Shown here: positions 601 through 41,454 of the stretch, one piece after another
How the letters are laid out: each line of letters opens with the position of its first letter
How positions within the stretch are numbered: the stretch's first letter is position 1
Translations under genes and position numbers: made by a program
Notes under the pieces: generated by a model
What the model saw: only the letters and a program-made list of their open reading frames with translations
Told to the model about the DNA's origin: nothing
Database searches by the model: none
Assembly: GCA_009773185.1 (NCBI GenBank)
Contig: WPIF01000018.1
Span: 1 to 57,726 of the forward strand
Reading direction: 5' to 3'
DNA from: Nitrospirota bacterium
Lineage (GTDB): Bacteria; Nitrospirota; Thermodesulfovibrionia; Thermodesulfovibrionales; UBA1546
DNA length: 57,726 nucleotides

Positions 601-624
601 AAGTGAATTTTGGGGGATGGGCGA

Positions 625-1176
625 ATGAAAGAACTTATTCCAGTTGAGATAATAGAGAAAAAAATCTATCTGGTTCGTGGTCAGAAGGTCATGCTCAGCT
701 CTGACCTTGCAGCGTTATACTGTGTTGAGCCAAAAGTCCTGATACAGTCAGTTAAGAGAAACATCGAACGGTTTCCCGCAGATTTCATGTTTCAGCTTTC
801 AAATCAAGAGTTTGTCAACTTGAAGTCACAAATTGTGACTTCAAGTTGGGGCGGTATTCGCCGTGCTAACCCGTATGCTTTTACTGAACAGGGTGTTGCA
901 ATGCTTTCAAGTGTTCTGAGAAGTAAGCGGGCTATTGAAGTCAATATTCATATTATGAGGGCGTTCGTTAAATTACGGGAACTGATGGCGACACATAAAG
1001 AACTTGCCCGTAAACTCGCTGACATGGAAAAGAAATACGACGCACAATTCAAAGTCGTGTTTGATGCTATCCGACAGCTTATGGCGCCGCCGGAAACAAA
1101 GAAAAGGAAGATCGGGTTTGAGGTCAGGGAGAGCAGGGCGAGATACGGGGCATCCGGGCGCAAGAAATCGAGATAG
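625..1176 (+). CDS. ORF6N domain-containing protein
   Basis: This 183-residue protein starts at the ATG at 625, which follows a GGGGG-rich ribosome-binding stretch; a TTG 15 bases earlier is a weaker start. Residues about 5-90 match the ORF6N (KilA-N-associated) domain: an early strand with [15 protein letters not shown], then [10 protein letters not shown], and [18 protein letters not shown] helical, charged tail ([21 protein letters not shown]) probably forms a coiled coil. ORF6N proteins occur in phages and mobile regions and are thought to bind DNA; the role here is unknown. The gene is bracketed by direct repeats (524-600 and 1197-1272), which suggests a mobile or duplicated cassette. 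Confidence 0.85.
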
Positions 1177-1194
1177 CTTTGCAGTTTCCCGCGC

Positions 1195-1280
1195 TATTCA
1201 CCCATTCACCTATTCACCGTTTTTCATCCCACAGATAATCCTTGTTTTTCATGGGGCAAAGTATTATCATTAGTTAATTT
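1195..1280. repeat. Right copy of ~80-nt direct repeat, with octamer array
   Basis: This segment repeats 524-600: a GTGAATRG octamer array on the minus strand (1195-1219), then TTTTTCATCCCACAGATAAT and TTGTTTTTCAT. It is followed by an AGAGGGATGATTGATGG stretch resembling the ribosome-binding region of the ORF6N gene, but no second ORF6N gene follows. The rest of 1281-1410 holds nothing I can assign. Confidence 0.75.
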
Positions 1281-1410
1281 TTAGAGGGATGATTGATGGG
1301 AGAAAGAGGAGATGAAAAGTGTTATTGCAAGACCTGACCCTGTTCTGTCCTCATGATCTAGAGCAACAGACGGGCGAAAAATGGACTGGTTATCTTGATA
1401 AATACAAACA

Positions 1411-1872
1411 GTGATAAATAAGAAAGAATTTAAAAAAGCAATAGCCGAGCCACTCAGAGCATCTGGATTTCTCAGTAGGGGGCAGACTTGGTATTTAGAT
1501 GGGCAGGATGCTATTGCTATAATTAACATTCAAAAGTATGAATACAGTGAGATGTATTTTATCAATGTGGCTTTTTGGCTTAAGGCGCTTGGCTATATGG
1601 AATTTCCTCCGGCGCATAAATGTCATCTTGATTTTAGAGTAGAGTCTCTTTTCCCTCAACACAGAGAATTGCTTATAGCTTCGTGCACGTTAACCGAGGC
1701 AGATGAAGATAACGTGAGATGGCTGAAAGCTTTTATTGTAGATGAATTAGTCCCGTTTTGTCGTGAATGTTTGCAGCAATCACAACTTAAAATCTTCTAT
1801 AAGGAAGGCCGTTTTTTAGAAGGTATGGTAAGAAAAGAAGCAAAAACTGTTCTGTCCAATGGCTCGTCTTAG
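1411..1872 (+). CDS. DUF4304 domain-containing protein
   Basis: The gene encodes 153 residues and starts at GTG 1411. The pattern is that of DUF4304: an N-terminal helix (KEFKKAIAEPLRASGF), a strand pair with RGQTWYLDG, then AIAIINIQKYEYSEMYFINV and FWLKALG. The family is common in bacterial accessory regions and has no established function. It has no obvious operon partner and no signal peptide. It sits between the ORF6N cassette and the AbiE pair, in the repeat-rich accessory zone. Confidence 0.7.
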   Translation: MINKKEFKKAIAEPLRASGFLSRGQTWYLDGQDAIAIINIQKYEYSEMYFINVAFWLKALGYMEFPPAHKCHLDFRVESLFPQHRELLIASCTLTEADEDNVRWLKAFIVDELVPFCRECLQQSQLKIFYKEGRFLEGMVRKEAKTVLSNGSS

Positions 1873-1942
1873 GAGGAGGTAGGGCTTGCAATACAACATC
1901 CCCTCTTTTAGCAAGCGTGAAAGCGCTCAAAAAAATAGTGTA

Positions 1943-2105
1943 GAAGTTCCATAGTCCATAGAGCCATAGCACAGCTCGCCTCGGCGAGTCACTTCGTGAA
2001 AGTTCGGAAGTGCAATAGTCAAAAGTGCAGTGGCCCCGGCGGCTCTACGCGGTACTTCGAGAAGCCAAAAGTGCCATAGTTCCATAGTGCCAAAGCTTCA
2101 AAGTA
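1943..2105. repeat. WAG-phased octamer arrays in intergenic region
   Basis: A TAG or AAG triplet recurs nearly every 8 nt: at 1945, 1953, 1960 and 1968, and again at 2062, 2069, 2077, 2085, 2093 and 2101. The motif CATAGTCCATAGAGCC at 1951-1966 recurs near 5699. The interval 1873-2226 has no gene; it holds these arrays and then the AbiE regulatory region. Confidence 0.7.
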
Positions 2106-2171
2106 TATCCAATAAGCAATACTTCATATATTAAATGAACTCTGACGCAAATAATATGCTTAACTTTAGTA

Positions 2172-2212
2172 TATAATTTATGCTATAGTTCAGCTATAAG
2201 ATGAACTATAGC
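2172..2212 (+). promoter_or_regulatory. AbiE operator: 11-bp inverted repeat downstream of a -10 box
   Basis: A perfect inverted repeat, GCTATAGTTCA (2182-2192) and TGAACTATAGC (2202-2212), is separated by 9 nt. It lies just downstream of a TATAAT box (2172-2177) and upstream of the antitoxin start. A further TGAACT half-site is at 2136-2141. AbiEi antitoxins are known to repress their own operon by binding inverted repeats in the promoter, so this is the likely operator. The -35 element is weak. Confidence 0.65.
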
Positions 2213-2226
2213 TCTTTTGATATACT

Positions 2227-3069
2227 ATGGAAACTCTGACAGGTATAGGGAAGGAAGACAGAAAGCGGCTTTCGGAGCTGTTCCGGGAGACGAAAGGCAC
2301 CATCTCGGTCACGGATGCTGCCGACATACTGAAAATCACTTCGACCGATGCAGCAAAGATGCTTTCCCGCTGGGCAAAGAAAGGCTGGCTTTCACGTGTG
2401 CGCCGAGGCTTGTATATTCGTGTAGCCTTTGAATCCCGTACAACCGATATTTCGTTGGAAGACGCATGGATTATTGCTGAGCGGTTATATTCTCCCTGCT
2501 ACATTGGCGGATGGAGTGCAGTAGAATATTGGGACTTAACAGAGCAAGTATTCCGTACTGTAGTGGTCATGACAACACAAAAACCGAGAGAACGTAATCC
2601 CATAATCAAAGGAACAAATTTTTTACTGAGGACTATATCTGAGAAGGAAATGTTTGGACTTAAACCTGTTTGGAGAGGACAGGTAAAGATATCTGTGTCT
2701 GATCCCTCGCGTACAATTCTTGATACGCTGGACGACCCCAGACTTGGAGGCGGAATACGTTCTGTTGCAGATATGTTTAGCAATTACCTGAAATCAGAGA
2801 ACAAAGACCTAAAGTTGTTGATCGAATATGCTAAGCGTTTAGGAAATGGCGCTGTCTTTAAACGCCTTGGTTTCTTATTAGAGCGTTTTGCTTCAGACCA
2901 GATATCTTTTATCAATGACTGCAAATCCCAACTTACTACAGGGAATGTTAAACTTGATCCAGCGCTGGAGTCTGACAGGCTGATTACACGATGGAGATTG
3001 TGGGTGCCGGAAAGTTGGGCAAATCCCGAAAGAAAACTTACGCCTTCAAACGGGACAAGGGAGAAATGA
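2227..3069 (+). CDS. abiEi: Type IV toxin-antitoxin system antitoxin, AbiEi family
   Basis: This is a 280-residue protein. An N-terminal winged helix-turn-helix (about 12-65) includes ISVTDAADILKI, AAKMLSRWAKKGWLSRV and RRGLYIRV, typical of AbiEi. The C-terminal domain contains the family signatures YIGGWSAVEYWDLTEQ and the SDPSRTILDTLDDP segment. AbiEi represses its operon and counters the nucleotidyltransferase toxin AbiEii without binding it directly. It starts at ATG 2227 with no clear Shine-Dalgarno. The toxin gene begins one base after its stop, indicating translational coupling. The inverted repeat at 2182-2212 is the probable autoregulatory site. Confidence 0.92.
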   Translation: METLTGIGKEDRKRLSELFRETKGTISVTDAADILKITSTDAAKMLSRWAKKGWLSRVRRGLYIRVAFESRTTDISLEDAWIIAERLYSPCYIGGWSAVEYWDLTEQVFRTVVVMTTQKPRERNPIIKGTNFLLRTISEKEMFGLKPVWRGQVKISVSDPSRTILDTLDDPRLGGGIRSVADMFSNYLKSENKDLKLLIEYAKRLGNGAVFKRLGFLLERFASDQISFINDCKSQLTTGNVKLDPALESDRLITRWRLWVPESWANPERKLTPSNGTREK

Positions 3070-3070
3070 T

Positions 3071-4504
3071 TTGATCGGCCGCAATGAAATAATGGATTTC
3101 TCCAGAGAGTTTATCCTCACAGCAAATGTTATTGAAAAAGACTATGTGCTTGGATGGGTATTGGCTGGAATTTCTAACCATCCTGAACTGAGTAAAAGCT
3201 GGGTGTTCAAAGGCGGTACTTGTTTAAAGAAATGCTATTTTGAGACATATCGCTTTTCCGAGGATCTGGATTTCACCGTCATTAATTCCGAGCATCAAAA
3301 TGAAAGTTTTTTAATCAATGTCTTCAAAGAGGTTGCTGATTGGGTTTACGAGGCAACTGGCATTGAAATTCCGAAGGAAACAATCCGTTTCGAAGTTTAT
3401 ACAAATCCACGAGGCAAAATATCAGTGCAAGGCAGAATTAGTTATCGCGGCCCGTTGCAACCGGGAGGCGCTCTGCCACGTATAAAATTAGATTTAACTG
3501 ATGATGAGGTTTTAGTTCTCGCTTCTGTCAATAGTGAAGTGCATCATCCGTACTCTGACAAACCGGAAAATGGGATTCAAGTTCAGGCCTATGGCTTTGA
3601 AGAACTTTTTGCAGAAAAGATTAGGGCGCTGGCAGAGCGGTTGAGGCCTCGTGACCTTTATGATGTGATTCATTTGCACCGGCATGACAATACGAAACAT
3701 GGGCGTGACATTATTTTGAGCGCACTCGAAAAGAAATGCAGTTTTAAAGGTATATCTGTGCCAACAATGGATATTCTCGAGAACAAACCGGAACGGGAAG
3801 AATTACAAACAGAATGGGAAAACATGCTGGGACATCAAGTGCCTGTGCTACCCCCTTTTGAGCAATTCTGGGAAGAGCTTCCGGCATTATTTGAGTGGTT
3901 ATATCGCGCAGTTGTCAAACCAGCACCTTCTTTTATGGCAGTTATGGGAGATGCAATTGATACGGCATGGCATCCTCCAGCAATGTCTCAGGCTTGGCAT
4001 ATATCAGCGCCGATCGAGGCAATACGCTTTGCTGCTGCGAACCGATTGTGCGTAGATTTGACTTATCAAGGGAGTCGCCGTTTGATAGAGCCATACTCAT
4101 TACGTCGTACGCGCGATGGAAACTTGTTGCTCTATACAGTAAAGCATAATACAGGAGAAAATAGATCATACAGGGTTGACCGAATTCAAGGCGCTCAAAT
4201 TACAAAGATTCCGTTTACCCCACGATATGTAATTGAGTTGACAACCGCGGGTTCGATCTCTGCTCCGTCGACTAACGCAAGAATAGGGGGAATTGCCAGT
4301 GTAAGACCGCAGTCAATTATATCATCTGGCAGAAGACCAAAAAGTTCTACGTCAGATTACGGTCCTAAATATGTTTTCGAGTGCAGTTATTGTGGTAAAA
4401 AGTTTACCCATAAAACGAATGATTCTAAACTAAGCAAGCATAAAGACAAAGATGGATATCCTTGTCTTGGCCGCACTGGATTTTTTGTCGACATGAGGTA
4501 TTAA
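3071..4504 (+). CDS. abiEii: AbiEii-family nucleotidyltransferase toxin with WYL-like and zinc-finger tail
   Basis: The protein has 477 residues, starts at TTG 3071 and is preceded by AGGGAG. The N-terminal ~290 residues are AbiEii: VFKGGTCLKK (KGGT at 47-50), RFSEDLDFTV (SEDLD at 63-67) and the EKIRALAERLRPRDLYDV motif, the nucleotidyltransferase core that inactivates tRNA or other targets in characterised members. Most AbiEii proteins end near residue 300. This one continues with a WYL-like domain (about 313-390: VDLTYQG, RLIEPYSLRR, RSYRVDRIQG) and a C-terminal Cys/His cluster (C438, C441, then His residues and C466) resembling a zinc finger. The added domains suggest built-in ligand or nucleic-acid sensing; that is inference. 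Confidence 0.88.
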   Translation: MIGRNEIMDFSREFILTANVIEKDYVLGWVLAGISNHPELSKSWVFKGGTCLKKCYFETYRFSEDLDFTVINSEHQNESFLINVFKEVADWVYEATGIEIPKETIRFEVYTNPRGKISVQGRISYRGPLQPGGALPRIKLDLTDDEVLVLASVNSEVHHPYSDKPENGIQVQAYGFEELFAEKIRALAERLRPRDLYDVIHLHRHDNTKHGRDIILSALEKKCSFKGISVPTMDILENKPEREELQTEWENMLGHQVPVLPPFEQFWEELPALFEWLYRAVVKPAPSFMAVMGDAIDTAWHPPAMSQAWHISAPIEAIRFAAANRLCVDLTYQGSRRLIEPYSLRRTRDGNLLLYTVKHNTGENRSYRVDRIQGAQITKIPFTPRYVIELTTAGSISAPSTNARIGGIASVRPQSIISSGRRPKSSTSDYGPKYVFECSYCGKKFTHKTNDSKLSKHKDKDGYPCLGRTGFFVDMRY

Positions 4505-4527
4505 ACGGGGATTTGGCAGAGCGTTGC

Positions 4528-4558
4528 TGAAGTGACAAAAAGTGCAGAAGTCAAAAGT
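4528..4558. repeat. Short AAG-phased array
   Basis: AAG triplets occur at 4530, 4540, 4548 and 4555, within GTGCAGAAGTCAAAAGTTC. This is a weaker member of the octamer family seen at 4871-4943 and 6465-6541. It lies just after the AbiEii stop. Confidence 0.55.
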
Positions 4559-4612
4559 TCAACGTATATGCTTTTTATTGTAAAATAAAGCACACACAAA
4601 AGAGGTGATAAG

Positions 4613-4789
4613 ATGCCATCTAAGAAAAGAATAAAATTTACCGAAGAGCCGATGGATAATCTCAGAGTTGTAAAGACGCTTATTCCAAAGAACGAGTTCT
4701 TTGAGCTTCAGAGATACGGCGCCAAAAAGGTAAGGAAACTGAAGCTGACAGAAAAAGTCATAGAGAAACTGATATTTGAAGACAGGTAA
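4613..4789 (+). CDS. Small basic hypothetical protein, 58 aa
   Basis: The reading frame ATG 4613 to TAA 4787-4789 encodes 58 residues and is preceded by AGAGGTGA at 4601-4608, a good ribosome-binding site. The protein is rich in Lys and Arg: it begins MPSKKRIKFTEEPMDNLRVV and ends LTEKVIEKLIFEDR. It could be a small antitoxin or DNA-binding protein, given the toxin-antitoxin surroundings, but no partner toxin follows and I recognise no family. The strong Shine-Dalgarno and amphipathic helices are the evidence that it is real. Confidence 0.55.
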   Translation: MPSKKRIKFTEEPMDNLRVVKTLIPKNEFFELQRYGAKKVRKLKLTEKVIEKLIFEDR

Positions 4790-4870
4790 TGTTGAATGGC
4801 ATTGGCATCACGAGAATCGCAGGATTTTTATATTCTTTCAGGAGATAAAGGCATTCCTGGTCTATAGCGC

Positions 4871-4943
4871 GGAAGTGCGGAAGGCTGGAAGTCGGGAAGC
4901 GGACAAGTACGCAAGTGGGAAAGAAGGCAAGCGGAGAAGCAAG
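4871..4943. repeat. Strict AAG-phased octamer array
   Basis: AAG triplets start at 4873, 4881, 4889, 4897, 4905, 4913, 4921, 4929 and 4937, exactly 8 nt apart nine times, with the other five bases varying (for example GCGGAAGT, GCGGAAGG, CTGGAAGT). It lies between the 58-aa gene and the 3' end of brnA. Confidence 0.85.
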
Positions 4944-4990
4944 CAGGCAGAAAAGTTAAAAGATAAATGAGCATGCTCGATCAGCTAAAT

Positions 4991-5257
4991 TTATGCTGAT
5001 TTTTTTTCGGTCTTTTCCTGCTTCACACGCTCGTGTAGCCAAACCTTTATCAATGCGCCCCTGTCAACGCCTATCCGCCGACGGATTTCATCTATATCAG
5101 CCACGAGAGACTCTGCAACATCGAGTGTCAGGCGCACCTTTTTCCCGTGATGGACAATCTTTGCCTTTGACATATCAATGAGGTCGTGGATGTCTTCTCC
5201 CGCGTCAAACCTTCTGTCGAATTCTATCGCGCTTTTAGCCTGTCTTTGCCTTGCCAT
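4991..5257 (-). CDS. brnA: BrnA-type antitoxin (CopG/RHH-like)
   Basis: This 88-residue protein is encoded directly after, and overlapping by 23 nt, the BrnT toxin gene, the standard order of brnTA operons. An N-terminal linker (EFDRRFDAGEDIHDLIDMSK) is followed by a ribbon-helix-helix-like segment (KKVRLTLDVAESLVADIDEI) and a Lys/Glu-rich tail. BrnA neutralises BrnT and represses the operon as a DNA-binding complex. The start at 5257 lies inside the end of brnT, implying coupled translation. Confidence 0.85.
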   Translation of the reverse strand: MARQRQAKSAIEFDRRFDAGEDIHDLIDMSKAKIVHHGKKVRLTLDVAESLVADIDEIRRRIGVDRGALIKVWLHERVKQEKTEKKSA

Positions 5258-5507
5258 ACAGTTTCTCCTCCTTTTCCCTCGAACGTCTAACCGATATTAT
5301 CCTGATAGTATTGCTTCGTATAGTATAAACGGCAGTCCATAATCTGCCCTGAAGTTTGGCAATGACGATGTTCCTCTTTTCGACAGGATGCGGTGCCTCT
5401 ATTTCAATCCGGTCTTCGTCAAGCCAAAGTTCCCTTGCCGTCTCAAAGTCAATGCCGTGCTTTTCTCTGTTAGCCTTGCTCTTTGCACCATCCCATTCAA
5501 ACTTCAT
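5235..5507 (-). CDS. brnT: BrnT family toxin (ribonuclease)
   Basis: This is a 90-residue protein with the BrnT pattern: FEWDGAKSKANREKHGIDFE at the N terminus, a central strand set (RNIVIAKLQGRLWTAVYTI) and the C-terminal IRIISVRRSREKEEKLY. BrnT is a RelE-like-fold ribonuclease that arrests translation; the C-terminal Arg residues belong to the active site in the family. It is first gene of a two-gene operon with brnA. A 16-bp palindrome and a TATAAT box upstream (5513-5547) form its probable autoregulated promoter. Confidence 0.92.
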   Translation of the reverse strand: MKFEWDGAKSKANREKHGIDFETARELWLDEDRIEIEAPHPVEKRNIVIAKLQGRLWTAVYTIRSNTIRIISVRRSREKEEKLYGKAKTG

Positions 5508-5512
5508 GATAT

Positions 5513-5547
5513 ATTATACATATTTTGACCATTATTTGTACAAATAA
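5513..5547 (-). promoter_or_regulatory. brnTA promoter with 16-bp palindromic operator
   Basis: On the minus strand a TATAAT box (complement of 5513-5518) lies just upstream of the brnT start. A perfect 16-bp palindrome, TTATTTGTACAAATAA (5532-5547), covers the -35 position. The BrnA-BrnT complex is known to repress its own promoter, so this is the likely binding site. Confidence 0.65.
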
Positions 5548-5555
5548 GTCCTATA

Positions 5556-5695
5556 GGCTAGAGGGAAGCGCGGAAGGCTGCACGTTGGCAATCAGGCAAG
5601 TAAGCAAGCGGGCTAGAGGGAAGCGCGGAAGGCTGCACGTTGGCAATCAGGCAAGTAAGCAAGCGGGAAAGAGGGCAAGCGCGGAAGAGCTGAAG
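5556..5695. repeat. 55-nt perfect tandem duplication built of octamers
   Basis: Two identical 55-nt units, 5556-5610 and 5611-5665, are followed by a degenerate partial third that includes AAGAGGGCAAGCGCGG. Within each unit AAG triplets fall on an 8-nt grid (5566, 5574, 5598, 5606). There are no spacers, so this is not a CRISPR array. The interval between brnT and the DsrE-like gene (5508-5856) holds the brnTA promoter and this array. Confidence 0.85.
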
Positions 5696-5856
5696 CCCCA
5701 TAGTCCATAGAGCCCATCTCACCGGAGAGACATTTTACCCTTGACATGACATCCAAATCGTGATAATTCTTGAACAAGAACGTGGAAAAGGAGATGATGT
5801 GGAGGATGAAAATATTGCCTAAGACGGGTACGTAAATGTTTTGAAAGGAGGATGAA

Positions 5857-6345
5857 ATGAAAAGGAAGATAGCCATTTTAATCTCGGTATTGATTGTTGC
5901 CGCGCTCATCCTGAGCGTCTCTGCTCCTGCCATGGCTAAGGCTTACTCCAAAGAAGCGAAGGCGGTGTTCGACTTTAGGGCGGGGAATGCAAAAAGCGCA
6001 TCGAGTCTTCTTACTCTCGTACACCAGACATATAAGGATATGGCTGCCAGGGGGAAGGACATGAAACCGTCCTTTGTCGTCGTGTTCATCGGCCCATCGG
6101 TAAAGCTCATATCGCATGACAAGACGGGGATGACTGAAGAGGATAAAAAAATAATGGACGAGATAGCCAACACGGTCGCGCTCATGTCCAAAGACAACAT
6201 CAGGCTTGAACTCTGACTCGTCGCCGCAAGGGTCATGGGTGTTGACCCCAAGACAGTGCTTTCGGAGATCAAGCATGTGGAAAGCGGCTGGATATCCCTT
6301 ATAGATTATCAGGCAAAAAGATATTCGCTGGTGCCCGTGTATTAA
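5857..6345 (+). CDS. DsrE-like selenoprotein, exported (in-frame TGA read as Sec120)
   Basis: The frame from ATG 5857 (ribosome-binding site AAAGGAGG) runs to TGA 6214-6216 and then continues open in the same frame to TAA 6343-6345, 162 residues in all. Residues 1-27 are a signal peptide ending at PAMAKA. The rest is a DsrE/DsrF-like fold: FVVVFIGPSVKLI, then the C-terminal LVAARVMGVDPKTVLSEI and GWISLIDYQAKRYSLVPVY, which are family hallmarks. The TGA falls where this family usually has Cys, after IRLEL. A SECIS-like hairpin at 6230-6248 follows. DsrE-family proteins carry sulfur on that residue; selenoprotein members have been reported in other bacteria. A plain nonsense mutation is the alternative. 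The Sec machinery is not in this window. Confidence 0.82.
6230..6248 (+). promoter_or_regulatory. Bacterial SECIS-like hairpin
   Basis: GGGTCA (6230-6235) pairs perfectly with TGACCC (6243-6248) around the 7-nt loop TGGGTGT. The loop begins 20 nt after the TGA and has a G in its first two bases. These are the published criteria for bacterial SECIS elements: apical loop about 16-37 nt from UGA, small loop with an early G. It lies inside the coding sequence, as bacterial SECIS elements do. Confidence 0.75.
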
Positions 6346-6351
6346 ACAGAA

Positions 6352-6373
6352 GGGCCGCGCAAAGGCGCGGCCC
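6352..6373 (+). terminator. GC-rich hairpin terminator after the DsrE-like gene
   Basis: GGGCCGCGC (6352-6360) pairs with GCGCGGCCC (6365-6373) around a 4-nt loop. It begins seven bases after the TAA at 6343-6345 and not after the TGA, supporting the longer reading frame. The T-rich stretch follows only loosely. Confidence 0.7.
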
Positions 6374-6464
6374 GCAGAAAAGCGCGAAAGAATTTTCAGA
6401 TTTTAATTTTTGATGAGATCTTGTTCTTTGCAGCCTTTTTAACTGATCTCTTGAGAATCAGCAG

Positions 6465-6541
6465 GAAAGCGGGCAAGTGCAAAAGCTATCAAGTACGCAA
6501 GTTCAAAAGCCAAAAGTACAAAAGTGCAGAAGACACTAAGC
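6465..6541. repeat. AAG-phased octamer array at the 3' end of higA
   Basis: AAG triplets start at 6467, 6475, 6483, 6491, 6499 and 6507, then after a 7-nt step at 6514, 6522, 6530 and 6538. The array runs into the stop codon of higA (6536-6538). The rest of 6374-6535 contains no gene. Confidence 0.85.
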
Positions 6542-6841
6542 CGCGCGGCGATGTACGCGTTTTTCCACCTCATGCCCAATCGTGCGCATTGCGATGCGGA
6601 GCTCATAATCTGCCTGCATCCCTACCCAAACCTCGGGCGACGTGCCGAAGTATTTGCCAAGCCGTATTGCCGTGTCCGCGGTAATAGCACGCTTGCCGTT
6701 GACGATAGCGCTTATGCGGCCGGGGGGCACTGCGATGTCACGAGAGATCATATTGATGCTGATCCCCAAAGGCTTCATAAAGTCCTCAAGGAGAATCTCT
6801 CCTGGGTGAATCGGTTCAAGAAGTTTCTGTTTTGAAATCAT
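6536..6841 (-). CDS. higA: HigA family antitoxin
   Basis: The protein has 101 residues. An N-terminal HPGEILLEDFMKPLGISI and a Cro/C1-type helix-turn-helix (ISRDIAVPPGRISAIVNGKR) are followed by TADTAIRLGKYFGTSPEVWV, the hallmark of HigA/VapI addiction-module antitoxins. It follows higB by 9 nt, in the unusual toxin-first order typical of higBA. HigA binds HigB and represses the promoter. The C terminus ends in a short Arg-rich tail; the stop codon lies in an octamer repeat array. Confidence 0.93.
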   Translation of the reverse strand: MISKQKLLEPIHPGEILLEDFMKPLGISINMISRDIAVPPGRISAIVNGKRAITADTAIRLGKYFGTSPEVWVGMQADYELRIAMRTIGHEVEKRVHRRAA

Positions 6842-6850
6842 GTCACACCT

Positions 6851-7129
6851 CTAATGGTAGTCTGTTATTTCAACGTCAAAGGCGTCGCCGTCTTTCCAGA
6901 GAAAGCAGATTCGCCACTGATCGTTGATCCTGATACTGTATTGTCCCTTGCGATCCCCTTTCAGGGCTTCGAGCCGGTTGCCCGGCGGAACCCTGAGGTC
7001 TTCCAGATGCCTGGCACGGTGAAGGTACAGGAGCTTACGCCGTGCAACCCGTTCGATAGAACGAAACCTCGGCACGTCCTGGTCGTTGAACAGCGTCTCA
7101 GCTTTTGCATCACGGAATGACCGGATCAT
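6851..7129 (-). CDS. higB: HigB/RelE-type mRNA interferase toxin
   Basis: The protein has 92 residues. Family signatures are MIRSFRDAKAETLF at the start, RRKLLYLHRARHLEDLRVPP, NRLEALKGDRKGQYSIRIND and QWRICFLWKDGDAFDVEITD. HigB cleaves translated mRNA on the ribosome. It is the first gene of the higBA operon. A TTGACA / TAGACT promoter (7137-7165) places transcription initiation almost at the ATG, and no Shine-Dalgarno is present, so the mRNA is probably leaderless. Confidence 0.93.
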   Translation of the reverse strand: MIRSFRDAKAETLFNDQDVPRFRSIERVARRKLLYLHRARHLEDLRVPPGNRLEALKGDRKGQYSIRINDQWRICFLWKDGDAFDVEITDYH

Positions 7130-7136
7130 TATGAAT

Positions 7137-7165
7137 AGTCTATTACGTCATGTGTAATATGTCAA
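7137..7165 (-). promoter_or_regulatory. higBA promoter with internal inverted repeat
   Basis: On the minus strand TTGACA (complement of 7160-7165) and TAGACT (complement of 7137-7142) are spaced by 17 nt. An inverted repeat, TATTAC (7141-7146) and GTAATA (7154-7159), lies between them and is a candidate HigA operator. The expected start of transcription is about 7130, next to the ATG at 7129. Confidence 0.7.
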
Positions 7166-7249
7166 GCGGCATAGACTGCCCCGGCAGGATAAAACAGGCA
7201 TTAGGAAAAAAGTCTGTTTTATGGTATTTATATAGCAAAGGAGCTGGCT

Positions 7250-41079: not shown

Positions 41080-41454
41080 TTAAAATGTCAGCCCCTGTCT
41101 TTCAAAAAGCATCTCGCCGAGATAAGAGCCTGTCTTTGGCTCTGAGTTAGGTATCAATTCTGCCTTGTTCAGTTCGTGGTATTTATAGCAAGCCTCACAA
41201 ATATAAAACTTAATCTTGAAGTCTTCGATTAGTGTTTTCATTAAGTCTGCGACAGGCGAAAACTGGCCTTTGGTCTGCCATGTCAAAGTCTCAGCGAATC
41301 CCTTTTTTGCAAGCAATGCGCCTTTATCCATCAGGAAAAAGGCAATCTCTGCATCAAATGTTGCCATGTTTGCCGCAACCTGCATTGCGCCTGCAACCTT
41401 GTCCGGATTGTCATACGAATGGGTGATGATAAAAACAAATTTTTTGTTCTGCAT
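41080..41454 (-). CDS. DsrE family protein (cytosolic)
   Basis: From ATG 41454 (GGAGG five bases upstream) this is 124 residues. The DsrE fold shows as KFVFIITHSYDNPDKVAGAM, ATFDAEIAFFLMDKGALLAK and KIKFYICEACYKYHELNK, the last containing the Cys pair where family members bind sulfur. It has no signal peptide, unlike the selenoprotein candidate at 5857. It may act as a sulfur carrier. A methyltransferase gene follows. Confidence 0.88.
   Translation of the reverse strand: MQNKKFVFIITHSYDNPDKVAGAMQVAANMATFDAEIAFFLMDKGALLAKKGFAETLTWQTKGQFSPVADLMKTLIEDFKIKFYICEACYKYHELNKAELIPNSEPKTGSYLGEMLFERQGLTF

Follow-up and report, generated by a model that had tools for sequence, protein, structure and literature searches.

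The window analysed here, a 57,726-nucleotide stretch of contig WPIF01000018.1 from a Nitrospirota genome, contains on its plus strand a reading frame (5857-6345) composed of 119 codons, a TGA at 6214-6216, 42 further codons and a TAA, with codon 120 as the sole in-frame interruption. A preliminary description of this DNA had proposed that the frame stays open past the TGA and that the 42 codons encode the conserved C terminus of a DsrE-like family, and both translation and homologues confirmed this. Read with TGA as selenocysteine (Sec), the frame yields a protein of 162 residues, and the segment GWISLIDYQAKRYSLVPVY is its true C terminus, which is kept in homologues from four phyla. Standard gene calling would end the protein at residue 119, as had been anticipated, and the value of the full-length protein lies partly in what such annotation would cut away. 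On the sequence evidence, it is very likely that the UGA is recoded as Sec. The features at the locus are as follows.

5675-6461, plus strand: block of 787 bp holding the gene, 95.7% identical to that of a congener, where it lies on the other side of BrnTA; flanking genes 84%
5845-5852, plus strand: Shine-Dalgarno-like AAAGGAGG upstream of the ATG, inferred from sequence
5857-6345, plus strand: complete gene, including the TAA, for a predicted exported selenoprotein of the DsrE fold (162 aa, with Sec as residue 120), translated with TGA = U
5857-5937, plus strand: predicted signal peptide, residues 1-27, likely cleaved after AMA
5950-6342, plus strand: DsrE-fold domain, residues ~32-162, AlphaFold mean pLDDT 88.4
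6214-6216, plus strand: predicted Sec-UGA codon, residue 120, at the active-site Cys of the family; Cys in 41 distinct homologues, TGA in the congener (genome G003, locus L054)
6230-6248, plus strand: predicted upper stem-loop of a bSECIS element, GGGUCA-UGGGUGU-UGACCC, with 19 nt between the UGA and the loop and -8.5 kcal/mol
6352-6373, strand not assigned: GC-rich perfect hairpin behind the stop, beginning seven bases after the TAA, with no T-run on the plus strand

The signal peptide was recognized by eye from a KRK n-region, a hydrophobic core and an AxA motif, and on these grounds export of the protein is highly likely. The motif at Sec120 is ULVA (UxxA), and the mature protein contains no other Cys. 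In an hmmscan of the protein, Pfam DsrE (PF02635) matched residues 62-159 across the TGA with 30.4 bits (gathering cutoff, 22.7), although the whole-genome profile search with PF02635 did not list the gene, owing to a limit of the first step of that search. NCBIfam has no model for the protein, and no RNA family exceeded its threshold within 5500-6600.

Cysteine homologues and the predicted selenocysteine codon

When 42 distinct members of the family were aligned (41 Cys homologues and the congener, whose Sec was entered as C), the column of the TGA was Cys throughout, and this is the single invariant Cys of the family. Among the closest homologues, Cys is encoded by TGC in G052 (54% identical) and is also the residue in both proteins of G041 and in G046. 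The claim that the TGA sits at the usual Cys of the family is therefore borne out by every homologue examined, and a sense codon for any other residue was not seen at the site among them. The congener, a Nitrospirae MAG (SCSY01000044), carries this TGA too, in a protein with 94% amino acid identity, and thereby supports the earlier assignment of this DNA to a likely member of Nitrospirota. Overlapping surveys that covered 396 genomes at the level of the phylum, 230 at that of the class and 176 at that of the order revealed no further TGA form of the protein. A scan of 84,980 species with two narrow peptide patterns picked up the congener and, apart from it, just five homologues, all with Cys. 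Within the genus, the gene is absent from two of four genomes.

The closest relatives in type are exported single-Cys homologues (G052, G227, G384, L055 from Gemmatimonadota, L056 from Aminicenantes, and L057 and L058 from Desulfobacteraceae). They share 47-55% identity with the Sec protein over the whole length, an N-terminal hydrophobic segment and a single mature Cys at the site, but encode it by TGC or TGT and have no bSECIS element. In a subfamily alignment (A5), neither the Sec protein nor any of its nine fellow members has a further Cys in the mature domain. By these sequence features, the Sec protein appears to belong to an exported single-Cys DsrE subfamily.

Conservation of the segment behind the TGA is the second main line of evidence. 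Identity to the Cys homologues is 62-69% in the tail, compared with 42-58% in the mature region ahead of the TGA; among the Cys homologues themselves, the values are 68% after the site and 57% before it. In the phylogenetic tree, the two Sec sequences are nested in a Cys clade (support 97/95), with a branch length of 0.54 changes per site. Without translation, the tail would have decayed along so long a branch, and its retention argues that it is translated and selected as protein. Between the two Sec genes themselves, only two changes follow the TGA, one of them synonymous, which is too small a number for a dN/dS comparison. The tree further suggests that Cys changed to Sec once in this lineage; the reverse change in all other lineages would be less economical.

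The preliminary description had also noted a perfect 6-bp hairpin with a 7-nt loop at the right distance from the TGA. We recovered it at 6230-6248, with 6230-6235 paired to 6243-6248 around the loop UGGGUGU, and compared it with the published bSECIS model (PMC13188914), which specifies a loop of 3-9 nt, an upper stem of 4-16 bp, a G among the first two loop nucleotides, a UGA-to-loop distance of 16-37 nt and a minimum free energy of at most -7.5 kcal/mol. The hairpin, which lies in the 6214-6260 region singled out earlier, agrees with the model on every count: its 7-nt loop has G as the second base, the stem is 6 bp long, the distance is 19 nt and the free energy is -8.5 kcal/mol. An equally stable hairpin under the same constraints arose in 3.6% of dinucleotide shuffles and at 1.2% of the TGA triplets of the window, and at none of the 24 TGA stops of long frames. 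Both Sec genes conform to the model, as does, just, one of 31 Cys homologues at the equivalent site. However, the hairpin alone is weak evidence, because the folding z-score of the region (0.2) is unremarkable. The case for Sec is carried by the Cys/Sec pairing and the translated tail, with the hairpin as support rather than proof.

The genome (2.79 Mb, rated 100% complete) is equipped to make selenoproteins. It has tRNA-Sec (selC; Rfam, 68.3 bits, also called by ARAGORN) and profile matches to SelB (393.8 bits), SelA (625.6 bits) and SelD (346.2 bits). The proposal had been made to depend on selB and selC, and both are present, together with selA and selD. SelD itself contains an in-frame TGA, with Sec in CAGU, and three FdhA genes have an in-frame TGA at the usual Sec site. 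The gene, the Cys/Sec pair, the bSECIS fit, the translated tail and the machinery were all read from sequence. A SelB match over the cutoff was likewise obtained in the congener and in the Cys-carrying relatives tested, so a loss of Sec decoding does not simply account for the Cys forms.

Several other observations were made on the genome. The third FdhA-like protein (L064, at the start of contig C17) has its in-frame TGA in ARIUHSATV. A genetic code in which TGA is always sense was ruled out, as 24 long frames in the window end at TGA. Class A RNase P RNA (RF00010) gave no match in the whole genome, and 11 of 14 controls did give one; the RNase P RNA may be of another class or absent from the assembly.

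Fold and proposed function

The AlphaFold model was obtained from a seven-row alignment (mean pLDDT 88.4; the single sequence gave 53.6). In the model, a low-confidence helix in the signal peptide region precedes the DsrE domain, and the strand 116-120 ends at Sec and is followed by a helix at 121-126. The best fold matches among solved structures were ST0148 (2pd2, Z 17.8), MTH1491 (1l1s, 16.5), YchN (15.0), TusD (12.9) and DsrE (12.6). Profile alignments placed Sec120 on the Cys of MTH1491, ST0148, 3mc3 and 3pnx, and it is via these matched Cys that a presumed equivalence between Sec120 and Cys78 of DsrE is drawn. MTH1491 and ST0148, both uncharacterised, are the closest solved structures by sequence as well as by fold, but they have Cys in place of Sec, are 113 and 108 aa long, respectively, and align from their first residues without a matching signal peptide. 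DsrE of DsrEFH (2hy5) and TusD of TusBCD (2d1p) share with the Sec protein the fold and a single reactive chalcogen site; in contrast to it, they are cytoplasmic, form heterohexamers with F and H subunits, and use Cys. No dsrF or dsrH partner genes were found beside the Sec120 gene, whose neighbours are BrnT, HigBA-like and nitroreductase genes. In A. vinosum, DsrC receives the sulfur that Cys78 of DsrE has bound (PMC3397948).

Overall, we consider that this is probably an exported, single-Sec DsrE/DsrF-like protein acting as a one-site carrier of sulfane sulfur. The carrier role by itself, which draws on analogy with DsrE, we judge to be about evenly balanced. A one-site carrier is the most likely reading because Sec replaces the active-site Cys of DsrE and no other mature thiol is present; the lack of any further Cys in the subfamily alignment also fits such a carrier better than a dithiol oxidoreductase. 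Beyond the gene itself, we infer export, selenium in the protein, sulfur transfer and partners. SelB and Sec-tRNA-Sec would decode the UGA, aided by the hairpin, and the signal peptide would then take the protein out of the cytoplasm. There, the selenol may load sulfane sulfur, with polysulfide, thiosulfate or the persulfide of a partner as donor, and the loaded sulfur might be handed to a partner, as is done in the cytoplasm by Cys78 of DsrE and of TusD. Compared with a thiol, a selenol is a better nucleophile and a stronger acid, and its oxidised forms are more readily reduced. Such chemistry would favour rapid loading from polysulfide or thiosulfate as well as resistance to over-oxidation. 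We found no conserved operon partner that names the substrate in L055-L059, and no exported DsrE of tested function in the literature consulted.

The simplest competing account is that the gene is broken, i.e., the TGA is a plain stop, due to a mutation or to an error of assembly, and only a 119-aa fragment is made. This is the conventional reading; TGC or TGT is one base step from TGA, and the two copies are recently related. Nevertheless, the TGA is kept in two MAGs whose frames differ at 18 other bases, it falls on the one Cys among 162 residues, a bSECIS element and the Sec machinery are present, and the protein-level conservation of the tail has held over a long branch. Judging from the model, the fragment would also miss a helix and strands of the fold core. 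We therefore regard a broken gene as very improbable.

Given translation through the UGA, a different role for the selenol has to be considered. Most bacterial Sec proteins are thiol-type oxidoreductases (PMC1794560, PMC1088965), and a lone selenol is able to cycle with external thiols, so a periplasmic enzyme that reduces peroxide or protein disulfides using an external thiol is conceivable. We think it unlikely, though the strongest of these alternatives, as the protein has neither a resolving Cys nor a CxxC-like motif and its nearest folds are of the DsrE/TusD/YchN type rather than thioredoxin-like. Less likely again is that the exported selenol handles metal or selenium, by binding a soft metal (Hg, Cu or Ag) or carrying selenium. 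A Sec metal ligand has been suggested for SaoB, SaoC and UXX-star (PMC13188914), but no metal resistance genes were seen beside the Sec120 gene, and the Cys homologues occur without such context.

Relation to other DsrE selenoproteins

DsrE-like selenoproteins are already known, as the preliminary description had stated, for instance from Sargasso Sea data and Desulfovibrio vulgaris, but the known ones are of a different type, being UxxC wherever a motif is listed (PMC1088965, PMC1794560, PMC2398784, PMC9312934, PMC13188914). They share with the Sec120 protein PF02635, a UGA-encoded Sec and a bSECIS element. The Sec120 protein differs in its UxxA motif, the absence of any other Cys, its signal peptide and its membership of another subfamily.

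The same genome has a second DsrE selenoprotein gene (L084, 1501-1830, minus strand; 10560-10889 of contig C40), in which the TGA lies in a UGGC motif. Behind it come genes for a DsrF-like, a DsrH-like and a Pyr_redox_2 protein (the last sulfide:quinone oxidoreductase-like by eye), with an ArsR-type regulator nearby. The UGGC protein is of the same fold family as the Sec120 protein, has its Sec at the homologous position in an alignment (A7) and is served by its own bSECIS-like hairpin, with the loop GUGC; its site aligns with the matched Cys of YchN. On the other hand, it has no signal peptide, belongs to a DsrEFH-like cluster and is only about 6% identical. By sequence, it appears to represent the known UxxC type, whose Sec position was judged here via this protein, and the genome would accordingly hold two different DsrE selenoproteins. 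A Sec-containing DsrE within a DsrEFH-like cluster is noteworthy in its own right.

The Sec120 protein apparently constitutes a second type of DsrE selenoprotein, exported and with a single Sec, of a kind that we did not find in the literature. It would add a type free of a resolving Cys to this group, and with its 47-55% identical homologues, each having one mature Cys, it forms a natural Cys/Sec pair that bears on what selenium buys a sulfur-trafficking protein. More tentatively, it may be an extracytoplasmic chalcogen carrier with the selenol as the sole reactive group, parallel to the cytoplasmic UGGC protein, and thus possibly the first of the DsrE type to carry sulfane sulfur (or selenium) on Sec in that location.

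The gene unit and its neighbourhood

Within the 787-bp block, gene and flanks alike are 95.7% identical between the two Sec genomes, compared with 84% for neighbouring core genes and 89% for BrnTA. This difference indicates that the two Sec copies share recent ancestry or transfer, and the shared TGA therefore counts for less than two independent observations. From these comparisons, the gene apparently moves as a small unit that has been shared recently. The BrnTA and DsrE units occur in swapped order with their orientation kept (4987-5543 and 5675-6461 in the window; 6655-7211 and 5819-6605 in L054). An integron-type cassette was rejected, as a simple scan found no attC-like pair.

A terminator had been proposed seven bases past the TAA. 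A hairpin does begin there, but it has no T-run on the plus strand and the scan called a terminator on the minus strand only; a plus-strand terminator is doubtful. The hairpin reads GGGCCGCGC-AAAG-GCGCGGCCC, and in the congener the same stems enclose the reverse-complemented loop (CTTT), as if flipped. Directly before the DsrE unit, at 5556-5692, a 55-bp unit is repeated in tandem 2.5 times, its copies being 95% alike.

The toxin-antitoxin-rich surroundings noted earlier were supported by Pfam. The region 610-7129 is dense in toxin-antitoxin and defence-type genes, including ORF6N, AbiEi/AbiEii (AbiEii with a fused WYL domain), BrnT, a probable BrnA and a HigB-like gene with an HTH antitoxin. 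Elsewhere in the window, another DsrE-domain gene (41107-41445, minus strand) lies downstream of a radical-SAM-like gene and has FYICEACYK at its active site, with Cys and no TGA.
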